NCBI RefSeq assembly: GCF_017357225.1
Contig: NZ_CP071605.1
Span: forward strand, 434,001-498,000
DNA from: Rhizobium binae
Lineage (GTDB): Bacteria > Pseudomonadota > Alphaproteobacteria > Rhizobiales > Rhizobiaceae
DNA: 64,000 nucleotides
Direction of reading: 5' to 3'
A program made the position numbers and the translations under genes. The notes below the pieces were generated by a model, which did no database searches, was not told the DNA's origin, and saw only the letters and a program-made list of their open reading frames with translations. Positions 51,302-59,902 of this stretch are shown in pieces; position 1 is the stretch's first letter, and the number at the start of each line of letters is the position of its first letter.

Positions 51302-51754
51302 CTAGTCTGGCTCGACGGGCCGGATTGTTTCGACCGAGACCGTACCCTCGAGTATACCGCGCTTTATATCATGTCTGTTCCGATCGATCTCTATCACGGT
51401 GTAGAGTTTATCGTCGCGAAAGGCGCTAGCATTGGCGGTCGTGACGTCCTCGGCGGGCGCTGCATCGACTTCCATGAAATCGAGTTCTCGTGCGGCCGCG
51501 ACGATCCTGGCATCGCCTGGCGTTCGGGCGGCCACGACGATCGTGCCGTGATTGGTGGCATTGCCCCATCTGGGGTCATCGAGTTTGGCAATCGGTTCCA
51601 GCCGATAGATGTTGAGCACCTCGCCGCCGGCTTCTGGCGATGCCTCCGCGGCGGCATCCTGCATCTGCGCCTGGCTCTCGACCGACCGCCCAAAGGTCGT
51701 CGGGCTGGTCGCGTTGTTGATCTCGTCTTTGCCTGTCCTTGAGACGTTCGACAT
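51302..51754 (-). CDS. conserved hypothetical protein behind an EcfG promoter
   Basis: A 150-residue soluble protein. The N-terminal 50 residues are polar and probably disordered. The following part (LNIYRLEPIAKLDDPRWGNATNHGTIVVAARTPGDARIVAAARE) is a compact alpha/beta segment found in rhizobial hypothetical proteins. The ATG at 51754 follows AAGGAG at the right distance. It is transcribed from a match to the general-stress promoter consensus. Function unknown. Confidence 0.75.
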   Translation of the reverse strand: MSNVSRTGKDEINNATSPTTFGRSVESQAQMQDAAAEASPEAGGEVLNIYRLEPIAKLDDPRWGNATNHGTIVVAARTPGDARIVAAARELDFMEVDAAPAEDVTTANASAFRDDKLYTVIEIDRNRHDIKRGILEGTVSVETIRPVEPD

Positions 51755-51777: not shown

Positions 51778-51803
51778 AACGACGGGCGGCGGGAAACTGT
51801 TCC
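51778..51803 (-). promoter_or_regulatory. EcfG (general stress response) promoter
   Basis: Read leftwards, GGAAC (51799-51803), a 17-bp spacer and CGTT (51778-51781) match the EcfG consensus exactly. It lies 24 bp upstream of the start codon of the 150-residue gene, leaving a leader with an AAGGAG ribosome site. Confidence 0.7.
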
Positions 51804-51921
51804 CGCGCAGGCAAAGTTTGGCCGTTGACATTGGGTTAGGCCTATCTCTGCAACCCTGCGGCACACCCATACCCTTTTTCCAGTCGAGCACTAATTACCC
51901 TCTGTCGAACAGGGGGATTTC

Positions 51922-54900
51922 GTGAGCACGCAAACCGGTGAATTTTCGCGCGACAACGCTGCGGCCGAGAGCCTCAACGGGCATGACCACAAAAGCATGG
52001 CGTTCGACGATGCCAGCGCCCTTCTCGAAGTGCTGGTCGCAGTCAGACGCGGTGATTTTTCCGTACGGATGCGCTCCGACCTGACCGGTGTTACCGGCAA
52101 GGTCGCCGACGCCCTCAACGACATTATTGCCGCCAATCAGCGCATGGCCCAGCAGCTTGAACATGTCGGCCAGGTCGTCGGCCGTGACGGGCGAACGAGC
52201 ACGCGGGTGCGCTTCGGCCTTTCCGACGGGTGCTGGTCCGAGATGGAGGGGTCGATCAACGATTTGATCGACGATCTGCTGTGGCCGACGACGGCGGTGA
52301 CGCGCACGATCACGGCGGTCGCCAAGGGTGACCTGCTGCAGACCGTGCCGCTCGATGTCGACGGTCGGCCGCTCAAGGGTGAGTTCCTGCGCTCGGCCGA
52401 TATCGTCAACACGATGATCAAGCAGCTGAGCGTCTTCACCTCGGAGGTGACCCGTGTCGCCCGCGAGGTCGGCACCGACGGCAAGCTCGGCGGCCAGGCG
52501 CAGGTGCCCGAGGTTACCGGCGTGTGGAAGGACCTGACCGAAAGCGTGAATTCGATGGCCTCGAACCTGACGGCGCAGGTGCGCAACATCGCCGAAGTGA
52601 CGATCGCCGTGGCCAACGGTGATCTTTCGAAGAAGATCACCGTCGACGTGCGCGGCGAAATCCTGCAGCTGAAGGAAGCGATCAACACCATGGTCGACCA
52701 GCTGCGCTCCTTCGCTTCGGAAGTGACGCGTGTCGCCCGCGAGGTTGGCACGGAAGGCAAGCTGGGCGGCCAGGCGCTGGTGCCGGGTGTGGCCGGCACC
52801 TGGAAGGATCTGACCGACAGCGTCAATGCCATGTGCGGTAATCTGACGGCCCAGGTGCGCAACATCGCTCAGGTGACGACGGCCGTGGCGCGCGGTGACC
52901 TGTCGCGCAAGATCACCGTCGACGTCTCGGGCGAAATCCTCGAGCTCAAGGAAACCATCAACACCATGGTGGATCAGCTCAACGGCTTCGCCGGTGAGGT
53001 GACGCGCGTGGCGCGCGAGGTCGGCACCGAGGGCCGGCTCGGCGGTCAGGCGCAGGTGCCGGGTGTCGCCGGCACCTGGAAGGACCTGACCGACAACGTC
53101 AATTCCATGGCCTCGAACCTGACGGCACAGGTGCGCAACATCGCCGAGGTTTCCACTGCGATCGCCAATGGTGACCTGTCGAAGAAGATCACTGTTTCGG
53201 TGTCGGGCGAAATCCTCGAGCTGAAGGAAACCATCAACACGATGGTCGACCAGTTGAACGCCTTTGCCTCGGAAGTGACACGCGTCGCCCGCGAAGTGGG
53301 CACGGAAGGCCGGCTCGGCGGCCAGGCCAATGTGCGCGGCGTCGCCGGCACCTGGAAGGACCTGACCGAAAACGTCAACTCGATGGCGGGCAACCTGACG
53401 GCACAGGTGCGCAACATCGCCGAGGTTTCCACCGCGATCGCCAATGGCGACCTGTCGAAGAAGATCACGGTCCCGGTTTCGGGCGAAATTCTCGAGCTGA
53501 AGGAAACCATCAACACGATGGTCGACCAGTTGAACGGTTTTGCCGGCGAAGTGACGCGTGTGGCGCGCGAGGTCGGCACGGAAGGACGGCTCGGCGGCCA
53601 GGCGAACGTGCGCGGTGTGGCCGGCACCTGGAAGGATCTGACCGACAGCGTCAATTCCATGGCCTCCAACTTGACCGGCCAAGTGCGTAACATTGCCGAA
53701 GTCGCGACCGCGGTCGCCCAGGGCGACCTGTCGAAAAAGATCACCGTTCCGGTATCGGGCGAAATCCTGGAGCTGAAGGAAACCATCAACACAATGGTCG
53801 ATCAGCTGAACGGCTTTGCCGGCGAGGTGACGCGCGTGGCGCGCGAGGTCGGCACCGAAGGCCGGCTCGGCGGCCAGGCGAATGTGCTCGGCGTCGCGGG
53901 CACCTGGAAGGATCTGACCGACAGCGTCAACTCGATGGCCGGCAACCTGACGGCACAGGTGCGCAATATCGCCGAAGTCTCGACCGCGATTGCCAATGGC
54001 GACCTGTCAAAGAAGATCACCGTGTCGGTCTCGGGCGAAATCCTCGAGCTCAAGGAAACGCTGAACACCATGGTGGATCAGCTGAACCGCTTCGCTTCGG
54101 AAGTGACGCGCGTCGCCCGCGAAGTCGGCACCGAAGGCAAGCTCGGCGGCCAGGCGCAGGTGCCAGGTGTCGCCGGCACCTGGAAGGACCTCACCGAAAA
54201 CGTCAACTCCATGGCCTCCAACCTCACCGGCCAGGTTCGAAACATCGCTGAGGTTACGACCGCCGTGGCGCGCGGCGACCTCTCGCGGAAGATCACCGTC
54301 GACGTGAAGGGCGAAATCCTCGAGCTGAAGAACACCATCAATACCATGGTGGACCAGCTGAACGCCTTCGCCGGCGAAGTAACGCGTGTGGCCCGCGAGG
54401 TCGGCACGGAAGGCAAGCTCGGCGGTCAGGCGCAGGTCTCCGGGGTAGCCGGCACCTGGAAGGATTTGACCGACAGCGTCAACTCGATGGCCGGCAACCT
54501 GACGGCACAGGTGCGTAATATTGCCGAGGTGGCGACGGCGATCGCCAATGGCGACCTGTCGCGCAAGATCACCGTCGACGTGCGCGGCGAAATCCTGCTG
54601 CTGAAGGACACGCTGAACACCATGGTCGATCAGCTTCGCTCCTTTGCCGGCGAAGTGACGCGTGTCGCCCGCGAAGTCGGCACCGATGGCCGGCTCGGCG
54701 GCCAGGCCGTCGTTCCCGGCGTTGCCGGCACCTGGAAGGACCTGACCGACAACGTCAACTTGCTCGCCGCAAACCTGACGACCCAGGTGCGCAACATTGC
54801 CGAAGTGACGACCGCCGTGGCGCGCGGCGACCTCTCGCGGAAGATCACCGTCGACGTGAAGGGCGAAATCCTCGAGCTGAAGAACACCATCAATACCATG

Positions 54901-57900
54901 GTGGACCAGCTGAACGCCTTCGCCGGCGAAGTGACGCGTGTGGCCCGCGAGGTCGGCACGGAAGGCAAGCTCGGCGGCCAGGCGCAGGTGCCAGGTGTCG
55001 CAGGCACCTGGAAGGACCTGACGGACACCGTCAACGTCATGGCCGCCAACCTGACCGAGCAGGTGCGCGGCATCGTCAAGGTCGTGACCGCGGTGGCGAA
55101 CGGAGACCTCAAGCAGAACCTCACCGTCGCCTCCAAGGGCGAAGTCGCCGCACTCGCCGAAACCATCAACAACATGACCAATACGCTTGCCACCTTCGCC
55201 GACCAGGTGACCACGGTGGCGCGCGAGGTAGGCGTGGAGGGCCGCCTCGGCGGCCAGGCGAACGTGCCGGGTACCGCCGGCACCTGGAAGGATCTGACCG
55301 GCAACGTCAACCTGCTCGCCGCCAACCTGACGACGCAGGTGCGCGCCATCGCCGAGGTGGCGACCGCCGTCACCAAGGGCGACCTGACGCGTTCGATCAA
55401 GGTCGATGCGCGCGGTGAAGTGGCCGAGCTCAAGGACAACATCAATACGATGATCGACAACCTGCGGCTCACGACCGAGCGCAACACCGAGCAGGATTGG
55501 CTGAAGACGAACCTCGCGCGCTTCACCAACATGTTGCAGGGGCAGCGCGACCTGACGCTGGTCGGCAAGATGCTGCTGTCGGAGCTGGCGCCGCTGGTCG
55601 GCGCCCATCAGGGCGTCATCTACCAGGTGGATGCCGACGAGAACCAACCGTTCCTCTCGCTGCTGTCGGTCTATGCGCAAGGGGGCGAGGCGGCGCATCC
55701 GCCCCGGCTCGACTTTGGCCAGGGCCTCGTCGGCCAGTGCGCCAGCGATGCCCGCCGCATCCTCGTGACCGATCTGCCCGAGAATGTCGTTCCGATCAGC
55801 TCCGGCGTGTTCACGACCCTGCCGAGAAGTGCGATCGTGCTGCCGGTGCATTTCGAGGGCCAGGTGAAAGCGGTGATCGAGCTCGCCTCCGCCGGTGAAT
55901 TCACCGAGCTGCAGCTCTCCTTCCTCGACCAACTGACGACATCGATCGGCATCGTTCTTAACTCGATCGAAGCAACCATGCAGACCGAAGGCCTGCTCAA
56001 GCAGTCCCAGCAGCTCGCCGCCGAGCTGCAGACGCAGCAGCGCGAACTGCAGCAGACCAACGAACAACTCGGGCAGAAGGCGCAGCAGCTCGAGGAACGC
56101 AACGTCGAAGTCGAGGCGAAAAACCAGGAGATCGAACAGGCGCGGCGCGCGCTGGAAGAAAAGGCGGCCGAACTGGCGCTGACCTCGAAATACAAATCCG
56201 AGTTCCTCGCCAACATGTCGCACGAGCTGCGCACGCCTTTGAATTCGATCCTCATCCTCGGTCAACAGCTCGGAGAAAATCCGGACGGCAATCTGTCGGG
56301 CAAACAGGTCGAATTCGCCAAGACCATCCACGGCGCCGGCACCGATCTGCTCAACCTCATCAGCGACATCCTCGATCTCTCCAAAATCGAGTCCGGAACG
56401 GTCTCGGTCGATGCCGAGGAGATCTTCGTCAGCAACCTGCTCGAAGTGATGGCGCGGCCGTTCCGGCACGAAGCGGAAACACGGAACCTGTCTTTTGCGG
56501 TCGAGGTCGGCGCAGACGTTGCGAAGAGCATCATTACCGACTCCAAGCGGCTCCAGCAGATCCTCAAGAACCTGTTGTCGAACGCCTTCAAGTTCACGGC
56601 GCAGGGCGGCGTGACACTGCGCGTTGCATCGGCAACAGGCGGCTGGTCGTCGGATCACCCTTCGCTTCGGCACGCGCCGTCGGTGATCGCCTTTGAGGTC
56701 GTCGATACCGGCATCGGTATTCCGCCGGAAAAACAACGCATCATCTTCGAGGCGTTCCAGCAGGCGGATGCCTCGACGAGCCGCAAATACGGCGGCACCG
56801 GCCTCGGATTGGCGATCAGCCGCGAACTGGCAAACCTGCTCGGCGGCGAGATCCAGCTGCGGAGCACGCCCGGCGTCGGCAGCACCTTCGTTCTTTACCT
56901 GCCGCTGACCTACGTCGGTGCCGGTGCGGTTGCACCCAGGCCGGTTCCGGCGCCGGCGAATGTCGTGGAATTCGCCGAGGCGGCGGCAAGCCGCCGCGCC
57001 GAGAAGCCCGCCGAACATGTGGCGGACGACCGTAACCGGCTAGAGGCCGGCGACTCCGTGCTGCTCGTCGTCGAGGACGATGCGCATTACGCCCGTGTGC
57101 TGGTCGATCTCGCCCGCGACAACGGGTTCAAGGTGCTGGTGGCGATGCGCGGCAGCGATGCGCTGACGCTCGCGCAGGAATACAAGCCGTCGGCGATCTC
57201 GCTCGATATTTTCCTGCCCGATATGCTCGGCTGGACGGTGCTGAGCCAGCTCAAGCAGAACCCACAGACGCGGCATATTCCGGTGCAGATCATCAGTCTG
57301 GACGAGGATCGACAGCATGGACTTACGCGCGGCGCTTTCGCCTTCATGAGCAAGCCGACGACGCCGGAAGGCCTCGGCAAGGCGCTGTCGCGCCTGAAGG
57401 CCTATGCCGAGCCGCGTCGCAAGCAGTTGCTGCTCGTGGAGGACGACGAGGCGGAGCGGTTGAGCGTCACTGCGCTTCTCGGACATGACGACATCGACAT
57501 CACCAGCGTCGGCTCCGGATCCGAAGCCCTTGCCGCATTGCGACGCAATACCCCTGATTGTGTGGTGCTCGATCTCTCTCTTCCCGATATGTCGGGTTTC
57601 GAAGTGCTGGAGCAGATACGCGACGACCTCGAAATCGGCGAGGTGCCGGTGGTCGTCTTCACCGGCAGGGAGCTCTCTGCGGAAGAGGACGCGACGCTCC
57701 ACAGCATGGCTCGCAGCGTCGTCGTCAAGGGTGTGGAGTCGCCCGAGCGGCTTCTCGATGAGACCGCACTCTTCCTGCACCGGGTCGTCGCCGATCTGCC
57801 GGCGGCAAAGCAGGCTACGTTGCAGGAACTGCACAGTTCGGACGAGGATCTCGTCGGCGAGACCGTACTGCTCGTCGACGACGACGCCCGCAACATCTTC

Positions 57901-58224
57901 GCACTCAGCAGCGTGCTGGAGCGCCGCGGCATGCGGGTTTTGACAGCGACGACCGGCAGCGAAGCCATCGACGTCATCAACAACGAACCCTCGGTTGCCA
58001 TCGTGCTGATGGACATCATGATGCCCGGCATGGATGGCTACGAGACGATGCAGGTCATCCGCTCGGAGCTCCGCTTCCGGCGGCTGCCGATCCTGGCGCT
58101 AACCGCCAAGGCCATGAAGGGCGACCGCGAGAAATGCCTGGAGGCGGGCGCCTCGGATTACCTGGCGAAGCCCGTCAACACAGAGCAACTGCTGTCGGCT
58201 CTGCGCATGTGGCTGCACCGCTGA
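51922..58224 (+). CDS. giant soluble hybrid histidine kinase with 11 HAMP repeats (Nik1/group III type)
   Basis: A 2100-residue sensor kinase with no signal peptide or membrane span. After one divergent unit, residues 175-1186 are eleven 92-residue repeats, each with [31 protein letters not shown] and [20 protein letters not shown], the poly-HAMP array of fungal Nik1-type osmosensor kinases. Then come a GAF domain (about 1200-1365), a Gln/Glu-rich coiled coil (1360-1425), HisKA with His1434 ([11 protein letters not shown]), HATPase_c ([20 protein letters not shown]), and three receiver domains with Asp1762, Asp1884 and Asp2031. No Hpt domain is present. Start GTG after GGGGG. A second hybrid kinase follows 10 bp downstream. 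Confidence 0.95.
52444..55479 (+). repeat. eleven tandem 276-bp coding repeats (HAMP array)
   Basis: The codons for [10 protein letters not shown] recur at 52444, 52720, 52996, 53272, 53548, 53824, 54100, 54376, 54652, 54928 and 55204 (the last is diverged), always exactly 276 bp apart. Unit identity varies. Units starting near 54256 and 54808 share 168 bp with a single difference, indicating recent conversion between repeats. Confidence 0.95.
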
Positions 58225-58234
58225 GGATCCGGTC

Positions 58235-59902
58235 ATGAGCCCCGTCAATATCCTCCTCGTCGACGACCAGCCTGCAAAGCTTCTGAGCTATGAGGTCATT
58301 CTCGAAGAGCTCGAGGAAAATCTGATCAAGGCGCAGTCGGCGCGGGAAGCATTCGAGCACCTGTTGCGCACCGAGATCGCCGTGATCCTCGTCGACGTCT
58401 GCATGCCCGAGCAGGACGGATTCGAACTCGTCGGAATGATCCGTCAGCACCCGCGCTATCAGAACACGCCGATCATCTTCGTCTCGGCCGTGATGCTGGC
58501 CGAACCGGACCGGCTGCGCGGCTACGCGGTCGGCGCCGTCGACTACGTCTCCGTCCCGATCGTGCCCGAGGTGCTGAGGGCCAAGGTCCGGGTGTTTGCC
58601 GATCTGTACAGGAAAACGCGGGAACTCGAACGCCTGAATGCCGAGCTGGAGGCGAGGGTGCACCAGCGCACCGCCGAGCTCGAAACATCGGCGGCGCAGT
58701 TGCGTCAGCTGAATGAAGAGCTCGAGCACCGGATCGACCAGCGGACGCGCGAGCGGGAGGAGGCGCTGGCGCAGCTCTTCGAAGCGCAGAAGCTCGACAC
58801 GATCGGTCACCTCACAGGCGGCGTGGCGCACGACTTCAACAATCTTCTCATGGCGGTGCTCGGCAGTCTCAGCCTGCTGAAGAAACGTCTGCCGGCGGAT
58901 GAGCGTAGCGAACGCCTGGTGACGAATGCCATCCAGGCGGCTGAGCGTGGCACGGCGCTCACCCAGCGCCTGCTCGCCTTCGCGCGCCGACAGGAGCTGA
59001 AGCCGCAGGCAGTCGACTTCCTCAGGCTGTTTGAAAATGTCGAGGACCTGCTCGCCAAGGCTGTGGGGCCGCGCGTCGAGATCCGAAAGTGCATCCCGGC
59101 GGATCTGGCGCCGCTGCTGGTGGACAGCAACCAGCTCGAGCTGGCGCTGCTCAACCTCTTCGTCAATGCACGGGATGCGCTCGAAAGCGGCGGCACGGTG
59201 ACGGTCGCCGCGGCGGTGGAAGAGGCACGGCCGACCGGCCTTGCGGGCGGGAATTACATCAAGATATCGGTCTCGGACGATGGCGAGGGGATGGACGAGG
59301 CGACGGTCCTGCGCGCCGCCGAGCCATTTTTCACGACCAAGGGGATCGGCAAGGGCACCGGTCTCGGCCTGTCGATGGTGCACGGCCTGGCAGCACAATC
59401 GGGCGGTTCGATCCAGATTTCGAGCGCGAGAGGCAAGGGCACCACCGTCTCCCTCTGGCTGCCCGTCGCCGAGAGCTTCACCACGGCACAGCCGGCCGTC
59501 GCACCGCCGGCGGAACCCGTGAAGCCGGTGTCGCGATCGCTTGCCATTCTTGTCGTCGACGACGATGCGCTCGTCAGGACCGGAACCGTGGCGATGCTCG
59601 AGGATCTCGGACACCTGCCGCGGGAAGTGGCCTCCGCTTCCCAGGCCCTGGAATTCTTCGCCGGCGGACAGGAGTGCGATCTTGTTATCACCGATCACGC
59701 CATGCCGGGCATGACCGGCGCCGAGCTCGCACGTCACCTTCGTGCAGCCTTCCCCAGCCTGCCCGTGATCCTCGCTTCCGGCTATGTCGAGCTTGCCGAG
59801 GACCAGGGGCTCGGGATGATCAGGATGACGAAGCCGTTCACGCAAGAGCAGCTTCAGACGGCTATGGAAGAAGCGCTCCGGGATAAGGTCGCTGCGGCGT
59901 GA
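58235..59902 (+). CDS. hybrid histidine kinase: receiver - kinase - receiver
   Basis: A 555-residue soluble signalling protein. The N-terminal receiver (1-125) has the phospho-acceptor Asp54 (VILVDVCMPEQDG). A coiled linker (about 130-185) leads to a HisKA domain with His199 in GGVAHDFNNLL, the type with an NN after the F. Then come an HATPase_c domain (LFVNARDAL, SDDGEGM, GTGLGLSMVHG) and a C-terminal receiver with Asp487 (VITDHAMPG). It lies 10 bp downstream of the giant HAMP kinase. The N-terminal receiver may accept phosphate from that kinase, making a two-kinase relay (inference). Confidence 0.93.
   Translation: MSPVNILLVDDQPAKLLSYEVILEELEENLIKAQSAREAFEHLLRTEIAVILVDVCMPEQDGFELVGMIRQHPRYQNTPIIFVSAVMLAEPDRLRGYAVGAVDYVSVPIVPEVLRAKVRVFADLYRKTRELERLNAELEARVHQRTAELETSAAQLRQLNEELEHRIDQRTREREEALAQLFEAQKLDTIGHLTGGVAHDFNNLLMAVLGSLSLLKKRLPADERSERLVTNAIQAAERGTALTQRLLAFARRQELKPQAVDFLRLFENVEDLLAKAVGPRVEIRKCIPADLAPLLVDSNQLELALLNLFVNARDALESGGTVTVAAAVEEARPTGLAGGNYIKISVSDDGEGMDEATVLRAAEPFFTTKGIGKGTGLGLSMVHGLAAQSGGSIQISSARGKGTTVSLWLPVAESFTTAQPAVAPPAEPVKPVSRSLAILVVDDDALVRTGTVAMLEDLGHLPREVASASQALEFFAGGQECDLVITDHAMPGMTGAELARHLRAAFPSLPVILASGYVELAEDQGLGMIRMTKPFTQEQLQTAMEEALRDKVAAA

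Follow-up and report, generated by a model that had tools for sequence, protein, structure and literature searches.

What does a soluble histidine kinase built around a long series of HAMP domains respond to, and to which protein does it pass its signal? The question was raised by a gene pair in a stretch of 64,000 nucleotides from Rhizobium binae (NCBI RefSeq assembly GCF_017357225.1, contig NZ_CP071605.1, positions 434,001 to 498,000, forward strand; hereafter the window), in which the gene for a poly-HAMP hybrid histidine kinase is followed in tandem on the plus strand, after a gap of 10 bp, by that for a second hybrid kinase, its partner. For the fungal kinases that fungicides need for their effect, the stimulus of the poly-HAMP array and the way it is perceived are still described as unclear (PMC3848655). 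The kinase type itself is already known from AskA, AskB, Amb07 and the fungal group III kinases, and what is new in the present analysis is comparative, i.e., a conserved partner, an exchange of the partner's kinase core and a link to EcfG. The answer that we hold to be probable, if well short of secure, is that a soluble sensor rod drives a dedicated second kinase through the receiver of the latter, the two genes forming a stress-signalling module. The poly-HAMP protein would be soluble, presumably a dimer, and would take its input through a rod of about 25 HAMP domains in which the units are position-specific; behind the rod come a GAF domain, a HisKA kinase and three receivers. It would control the second kinase via that kinase's N-terminal receiver, and the second kinase would in turn pass the signal onward.

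The rod itself is strikingly regular. A tandem array with a period of 276 bp was detected at 52406-55386, and in the protein the motif VAREVG recurs 11 times at exactly 92-residue spacing between residues 170 and 1181. A preliminary description of this DNA, made from its letters alone, had proposed eleven exact 92-residue HAMP units, and a hidden Markov model search bore out that the repeats score as HAMP domains: Pfam finds 11 stretches of HAMP (PF00672) and 11 of HAMP_2 (PF18947), with 11 HAMP_2 matches over the cut-off in this open reading frame (ORF), and the motif anchors, a GDL-type one present 13 times and a Trp present 12 times, mark 13 HAMP and 12 HAMP_2 positions when the degenerate N-terminal set is included. 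Taken with the motif spacing, these anchors indicate that the 92-residue unit is a HAMP_2-HAMP pair and that the array holds about 25 HAMP-like domains, so that the proposed count and register stood and the unit had to be doubled. An AlphaFold model of residues 22-445 was poor (mean predicted local distance difference test score 56), and only its helix-loop rhythm was used, i.e., nine inter-helix loops in 424 residues, or about one per 46. A Foldseek search with this model ranked the Aer2 poly-HAMP first and second at E values of 0.46 and 0.58, which are not significant, and two histidine kinase-Gcn4p fusions in the PDB, 9trk and 9trj, match residues 22-308 and 22-217.

The eleven units have the same length and differ in sequence (mean identity 79%, range 60-95%), and each has kept its place. 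When the array was compared with those of three other loci (L023, L036 and L123), a unit best matched the unit of the same number, mean identity being 92.6-93.6% for units of equal position and about 78% for the other pairings, the exceptions being middle units 6 and 8, each of which was nearer to another unit. Concerted evolution of the repeats was thereby ruled out; the copies were not homogenised, and the eleven units must have been fixed before these lineages parted or moved. Arrays elsewhere have fewer units, always at a spacing of 92 residues (184 where one motif has been lost), some of the short ones coming from draft assemblies in which repeats may collapse. Ratios of nonsynonymous to synonymous change (dN/dS) were 0.014-0.021 for the array versus 0.043-0.077 for the catalytic half in six pairs (with L014, L009, L012, L011, L015 and L020), synonymous change being near saturation in the most distant of them, and the direction was the same in four pairs at larger distance (L036, L023, L123 and L175). 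A row with the opposite direction, L179 (array 0.38, catalytic half 0.18), was dropped because that protein has 9 units rather than 11, which puts a fixed-length comparison out of register. It is unusual for the input region to be the most constrained part of such a protein, and the constraint would seem to be mechanical or one of docking rather than that of a fast-changing ligand pocket, a change in HAMP conformation potentially being the input.

The evidence that the two kinases belong together came from their relatives. Among 58 array loci with usable downstream sequence (L018, which has no array, and L171 and L177, which have no downstream sequence, were left out), all but one have, 13-236 bp past the array gene's last codon, the start of a receiver match that is followed by a kinase, and the count is 43 of 44, with two genomes appearing twice, when the 14 loci fetched with the partner (protein 2) as bait are set aside. 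Fifteen relatives share the catalytic half and are array-less, meaning that no array lies within the sequence stretch examined; none of the 15 has such a gene directly downstream, although in two of them (L109 and L115) a receiver is found about 0.9 kb downstream. The array-less relatives L107-L122, except L120, have the same kinase-three-receiver half in open frames of about 1150-1640 residues.

What follows the receiver in the partner is far less uniform than the receiver itself. The partner's kinase core is of the HisKA type in 48 loci and of the HWE type in nine, and domain scans revealed the forms receiver-kinase-receiver, receiver-PAS-kinase-receiver, receiver-PAS-PAS-kinase-receiver and receiver-PAS-HWE; in the more distant alphaproteobacterial loci of the window's type the receiver retains 65-77% identity while the kinase behind it varies. 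Two Burkholderiales loci (L187 and L193) have a two-receiver kinase directly downstream of the array gene. In a quick tree of the catalytic half, from which L003-L008, L010, L137, L138 and L141 were omitted as near copies or same-genome copies, the HWE rows are nested in the window-type clade, and the HisKA/HWE label needs two changes, or conceivably one. (L127 was omitted from the structure alignment as out of register, and the receiver and HWE core of L174 were taken from the 58-locus downstream survey.) The first receiver keeps its Asp, and its usual Lys is absent from the window's partner, where the sequence reads DYVSVP; all 45 scored window-type partners have Val at this position and all 10 scored ones of the other clade have Lys, three of the 58 loci being unscored. 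It is this receiver, conserved in front of exchangeable kinases, that may be the interface between the two proteins, a suggestion that leans on a parallel in print, the contact of AskA Rec3 with the AskC receiver (PMC7643160). In Deinococcus sp. QL22 (L189, 7923-15899) the order is poly-HAMP kinase, CheR methyltransferase and receiver-PAS-kinase, a methylation enzyme thus lying within the pair.

A role in the general stress response is suggested by promoters and by the company that the kinases keep. Upstream of the kinase gene and facing it, the published form of the EcfG motif, GGAAC-N17-20-GTT (PMC6599016), occurs in 13 of the 35 clusters from Alphaproteobacteria, versus 27 of 341 control genes (Fisher P 9e-6); near-identical upstream regions (e.g., L123/L124/L126) were merged into clusters, L128 and L129, from one genus, were counted separately, and the 35 omit L127, L133 and L134, which are from other classes. 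A second, strict form was also tried, GGAAC-N15..18-CGTT, and 8 of 38 clusters have it facing the kinase; the expectation calculated from the same loci was 0.28, and among control genes 11 of 341 have it (Fisher P 1.7e-4). Three of these 11 control hits belong to divergent genes with a two-way site in common. The published form was found in five of seven HWE-type clusters versus 8 of 28 others (P 0.05). HWE/HisKA_2 kinases with an HRxxN motif act on PhyR and EcfG in Sphingomonas (PMC5898713), and HRxxN occurs in the receiver's frame in seven of the nine HWE partners, the string being seen in some frame only in L174 and L184. In actinomycetes, the poly-HAMP gene is followed in Streptomyces fungicidicus by genes for a SpoIIE phosphatase, STAS proteins and an anti-sigma-type ATPase, and in Embleya by those for a SpoIIE phosphatase and a HATPase_c_2 protein; such SpoIIE/HATPase_c_2 neighbours were not seen beside the poly-HAMP gene of Streptantibioticus (L194). 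Taken together, the motif enrichment, the HWE/HRxxN partners and the SpoIIE neighbours would favour a general-stress setting over a specific osmosensor. On a Methylocystis rosea plasmid (L191, 3363-4049), where the partner is HWE, the poly-HAMP gene is preceded, at a distance of about 2.8 kb, by one for an RNA polymerase sigma factor.

For the window's own kinase the promoter evidence is different. The EcfG promoter next to which the preliminary description had placed it does exist, and it points on the minus strand to the divergent gene rather than to the kinase, whose strand has only one-mismatch sites and no GGAAC-N17-20-GTT upstream. EcfG control of this kinase was consequently dropped, and the broader stress link for poly-HAMP kinases appears to be supported independently, by the kinase-facing EcfG-type sites in other lineages.

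The same description had read the placement of the pair as a pointer to osmotic or desiccation sensing, and its neighbours are indeed as claimed: GlgE, a trehalose synthase with a maltokinase cap and GlgB upstream, and a treZ-like gene downstream (names per R. etli CFN 42). Such a kinase might be a bacterial Nik1, with the array itself sensing osmotic or desiccation stress, as was proposed for fungal group III, and the trehalose and glucan genes as targets; its 92-residue paired-HAMP unit is the same as that of CaNik1p (PMC3848655), it has no membrane-like stretch, the GlgE/treS-mak/glgB and treZ neighbours recur in R. etli CFN 42, and the poly-HAMP gene on a plasmid of S. fungicidicus likewise has treS, maltokinase and glgB upstream. 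We nevertheless consider this unlikely. Trehalose and glucan neighbours were found in four of 35 relatives' loci, and these four all belong to the clade of the window (of the 35, L018 and L021 are short-flanked); the osmotic link via the neighbourhood was dropped on that account, the EcfG site facing away from the kinase besides. The inducers tested in Myxococcus xanthus were ambruticin and glycerol (PMC7643160). Operons can also persist without any direct interaction of their products, and two unrelated hybrid kinases might have stayed side by side by operon inheritance only, serving separate pathways. That seems to us a rather poor bet when the pair is near-constant with the array and missing without it, over deep divergence and in plasmid-borne copies, and when the receiver has been conserved while the rest of the partner was exchanged. 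Very improbable, in our judgement, is a regulator of the AskB kind, with a HAMP region that binds DNA and a direct action on transcription factors. AskB did shift the mrpC promoter in vitro, and the window's kinase has partial Pfam matches to SpoIIID and HTH_6 like those read as helix-turn-helix (HTH) elements in AskA and AskB (PMC7643160), SpoIIID passing the whole-protein cut-off (48.7 versus 27 bits) and HTH_6 scoring 20 versus 28.3. However, the best stretches, at residues 200-226 and 162-187, are within the HAMP region, no single stretch of either family passes (0 each), and the matches look like HAMP-helix cross-matches summed over many repeats. DNA binding via HTH elements was therefore dropped, and such cross-matches would be poor evidence for HTH domains here and, probably, in AskA and AskB as well.

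The two-gene stress module that we prefer has its own difficulties. All 14 loci in the upstream cluster of the window have the EcfG-type site facing the divergent gene, the kinase-strand motif is absent from 22 of the 35 alphaproteobacterial clusters, and no gene for a general stress response regulator was recognised among the 10 flanking ORFs scanned in the HWE loci L123 and L125. One array locus (L134) has no partner; two actinomycete loci have a SpoIIE phosphatase gene in place of the receiver-kinase, and in Streptantibioticus there is only an opposite-strand ORF without a Pfam match. The tree behind the core exchange was quick, with several long branches and open forks, and the missing Lys of the partner's receiver may mean docking without a normal phospho-switch. 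The array is also patchily distributed: within the genus 16 of 37 genomes have it, the match in two of these being split into two pieces, and within the class 21 of the 385 Alphaproteobacteria sampled, a figure that counts the window's own genome. All of these points weigh against the module.

The coordinates of the pair and of its upstream flank are collected in Table 1.

Table 1. The two kinase genes, their domains and the adjoining upstream features, in window positions.
Feature	Position	Strand	Evidence
Divergent neighbour gene, 150 residues, no Pfam match, outside the pair	51302..51754	-	ORF list, Pfam
EcfG-type promoter motif GGAAC-N17-CGTT, reading to the divergent gene	51778..51803	-	Motif search
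Poly-HAMP hybrid histidine kinase, 2100 residues, GTG start	51922..58224	+	ORF list, Pfam, motif spacing
Degenerate N-terminal HAMP / HAMP_2 / HAMP set (about residues 33-169)	52018..52428	+	Motif anchors
Eleven 92-residue units, HAMP_2 plus HAMP apiece (residues 170-1181)	52429..55464	+	Spacing, Pfam stretches
GAF domain (residues 1210-1346)	55549..55959	+	Pfam
HisKA + HATPase_c (residues 1425-1663), His within SHELRTPL	56194..56910	+	Pfam, sequence
Receiver 1, limits approximate	57055..57411	+	Pfam, sequence
Receiver 2, limits approximate	57424..57786	+	Pfam, sequence
Receiver 3 (residues 1982-2094)	57865..58203	+	Pfam
Partner hybrid kinase, receiver-HisKA-HATPase-receiver, 555 residues	58235..59902	+	ORF list, Pfam
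Partner N-terminal receiver (residues 6-119); Asp retained, conserved Lys replaced by Val	58250..58591	+	Pfam, alignment
Partner HisKA + HATPase_c (residues 193-412), HDFNN type	58811..59470	+	Pfam, sequence
Partner C-terminal receiver (residues 438-547, limits by FleQ match; one of two Response_reg stretches)	59546..59875	+	Pfam

Much of the preliminary description of these proteins held. The ORF list and Pfam upheld the length of the first protein, its GAF domain, single HisKA/HATPase core and three receivers, and likewise the receiver-kinase-receiver protein directly downstream; hydropathy, on which its solubility was judged, gave neither kinase a membrane-like stretch, the maximum 19-residue Kyte-Doolittle mean being 1.42 for the poly-HAMP kinase and 1.31 for the partner. 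Where four or five acceptor Asp had been expected, all five receiver Asp of the two kinases were seen by eye in the sequence, and the expected lack of an Hpt was confirmed, Pfam finding none in either protein and three matches elsewhere in the window's genome. The partner gene is real, and the phrase "ready-made phosphorelay" would be better worded as a kinase acting on the receiver of a second kinase. In the 7.06-Mb genome, of which the window lies on contig 2, the poly-HAMP gene is single-copy, and 86 other matches correspond to kinase or receiver parts only. Opposite the two genes, minus-strand frames are open at 51895-53682, 54007-57018 and 58175-59845 (595, 1003 and 556 residues), and are probably by-products of G+C-rich codon use.

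That such kinases are best known from fungi, as had also been stated, understates their bacterial presence: at least 7999 related proteins reach E <= 1e-50, and AskA/AskB/AskC are a bacterial case that has been characterised. At E 1e-100, 166 of 72,556 plasmid records contain a match to the array, some of them from Azospirillum, Paraburkholderia, Deinococcus and Streptomyces; close relatives, at 98-99% over the array, are plasmid-borne in Rhizobium, among them that of R. etli CFN 42, which carries the pair on p42f (RHE_RS27810 and RHE_RS27805). The locus on plasmid p1 of Streptomyces fungicidicus (L190, 1-19539) reads treS, maltokinase, glgB, then a one-receiver poly-HAMP kinase and the SpoIIE, STAS and anti-sigma genes, i.e., trehalose/glucan genes stand near a poly-HAMP gene once more, in a different phylum.

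A further set of genes accompanies the pair in some lineages, namely a triad of a small putative winged-helix DNA-binding protein and two DUF5985 proteins. Of the 90 loci checked, 15 of which are array-less, 10 have the triad next to the pair (L023, L036, L132, L133, L135, L173, L174, L179, L186 and L188, of which L186 and L188 supplied the queries), in varying positions and orientations, and in some genomes it lies distant from the array or on a separate contig; in G414 a partner gene adjoins the triad, and the contig breaks off where that gene starts. The small protein had a weak GntR match in one of two cases and none in the other, and the DUF5985 proteins are hydrophobic enough for two or three membrane helices apiece. 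DUF5985 exceeded the cut-off in 11 of the 385 class genomes, and eight of these 11 are among the 21 array genomes (hypergeometric P 2.7e-9; eight of nine by genus). The window's genome has no DUF5985 match, and no paper naming DUF5985 was found in the literature searched.

These observations allow a wider, and decidedly tentative, proposal. Bacterial poly-HAMP kinases could be the shared sensor core of a widespread general-stress module, in which a HAMP rod docks interchangeable HisKA or PhyR-type HWE kinases via one conserved, often Lys-less receiver, adjoins SpoIIE/STAS/anti-sigma partner switching in actinomycetes and has the DUF5985 pair and small putative DNA-binding protein as accessories in many lineages, fungal Nik1-HOG being a branch of an older design; we would as yet give it only a modest chance of proving correct. 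The comparative rules found in the analysis are of practical value because they can be tested directly: the partner is nearly fixed, one interface stands out as the candidate, output kinases have been swapped in nature, each unit is locked to its position, and a membrane-protein pair co-occurs with the array. They also open poly-HAMP sensing to study in a genetically tractable bacterial model, e.g., the R. etli CFN 42 pair. The conserved partner, the kinase exchange and the EcfG link are not stated in the titles or abstract beginnings of the poly-HAMP kinase literature found by search, a search for HAMP, EcfG and hybrid histidine kinase together found no paper, and nothing on the Rhizobium pair came up in these searches.

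In the exact fungal group III layout, HisKA, HATPase and one receiver come directly after the array, whereas in the window's kinase a GAF domain intervenes and there are three receivers. The likeness to the group (Nik1, TcsC and Bos1) is otherwise considerable: CaNik1p has repeats of about 90 (92) residues, each a HAMP pair, and the group's N-terminal 92-residue HAMP pairs, HisKA, HATPase and receiver (PMC3848655) all have counterparts here, including the repeats of about 90 residues. The lack of transmembrane segments (a group feature per PMC7643160) is shared, as judged by hydropathy, and under the looser wording "several receiver domains" of the same source the three receivers would fit as well. 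CaNik1p, however, has nine HAMP domains (PMC3848655) versus about 25 here, and the GAF domain, the three receivers and the partner kinase are features of the window's protein and locus; in fungi the signal of the kinase enters a phosphorelay that includes an Hpt protein and the HOG pathway (PMC11253588, PMC3848655), and group III is described as fungal-specific (PMC11253588).

Concatenated HAMP domains in signalling proteins also recall the Aer2-type poly-HAMP and FrzCD di-HAMP chemoreceptors, but those have a chemoreceptor output and two or three HAMP domains, and the NCBIfam Aer2 model, which matches the poly-HAMP kinase in 12 stretches, scores 289 bits, far below its 1200-bit cut-off. The PhyR-activating HWE kinases (Paks) of the alphaproteobacterial general stress response are approached by the nine relatives with HWE partners (Pfam HWE_HK in L123, L175, L176 and L183, and also L191) and by the enriched EcfG-type promoters; the core of the window's partner is HisKA, not HWE, and any connection of the pair to PhyR would be conjectural. 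A resemblance in layout is also seen to M. xanthus, a member of a different phylum, where AskA, AskB and AskC act in development and in the response to ambruticin and glycerol, askC, a hybrid kinase gene, lies immediately downstream of askB (MXAN_6734 and MXAN_6735, respectively), and AskC binds both AskA and AskB, with AskA Rec3 interacting with the AskC receiver (PMC7643160). AskB has 11 HTH/SpoIIID-like matches over its HAMP domains (PMC7643160), a number equal to that of the units here, and the likeness in layout is that of a soluble poly-HAMP hybrid kinase with a second hybrid kinase immediately downstream, as in R. binae.

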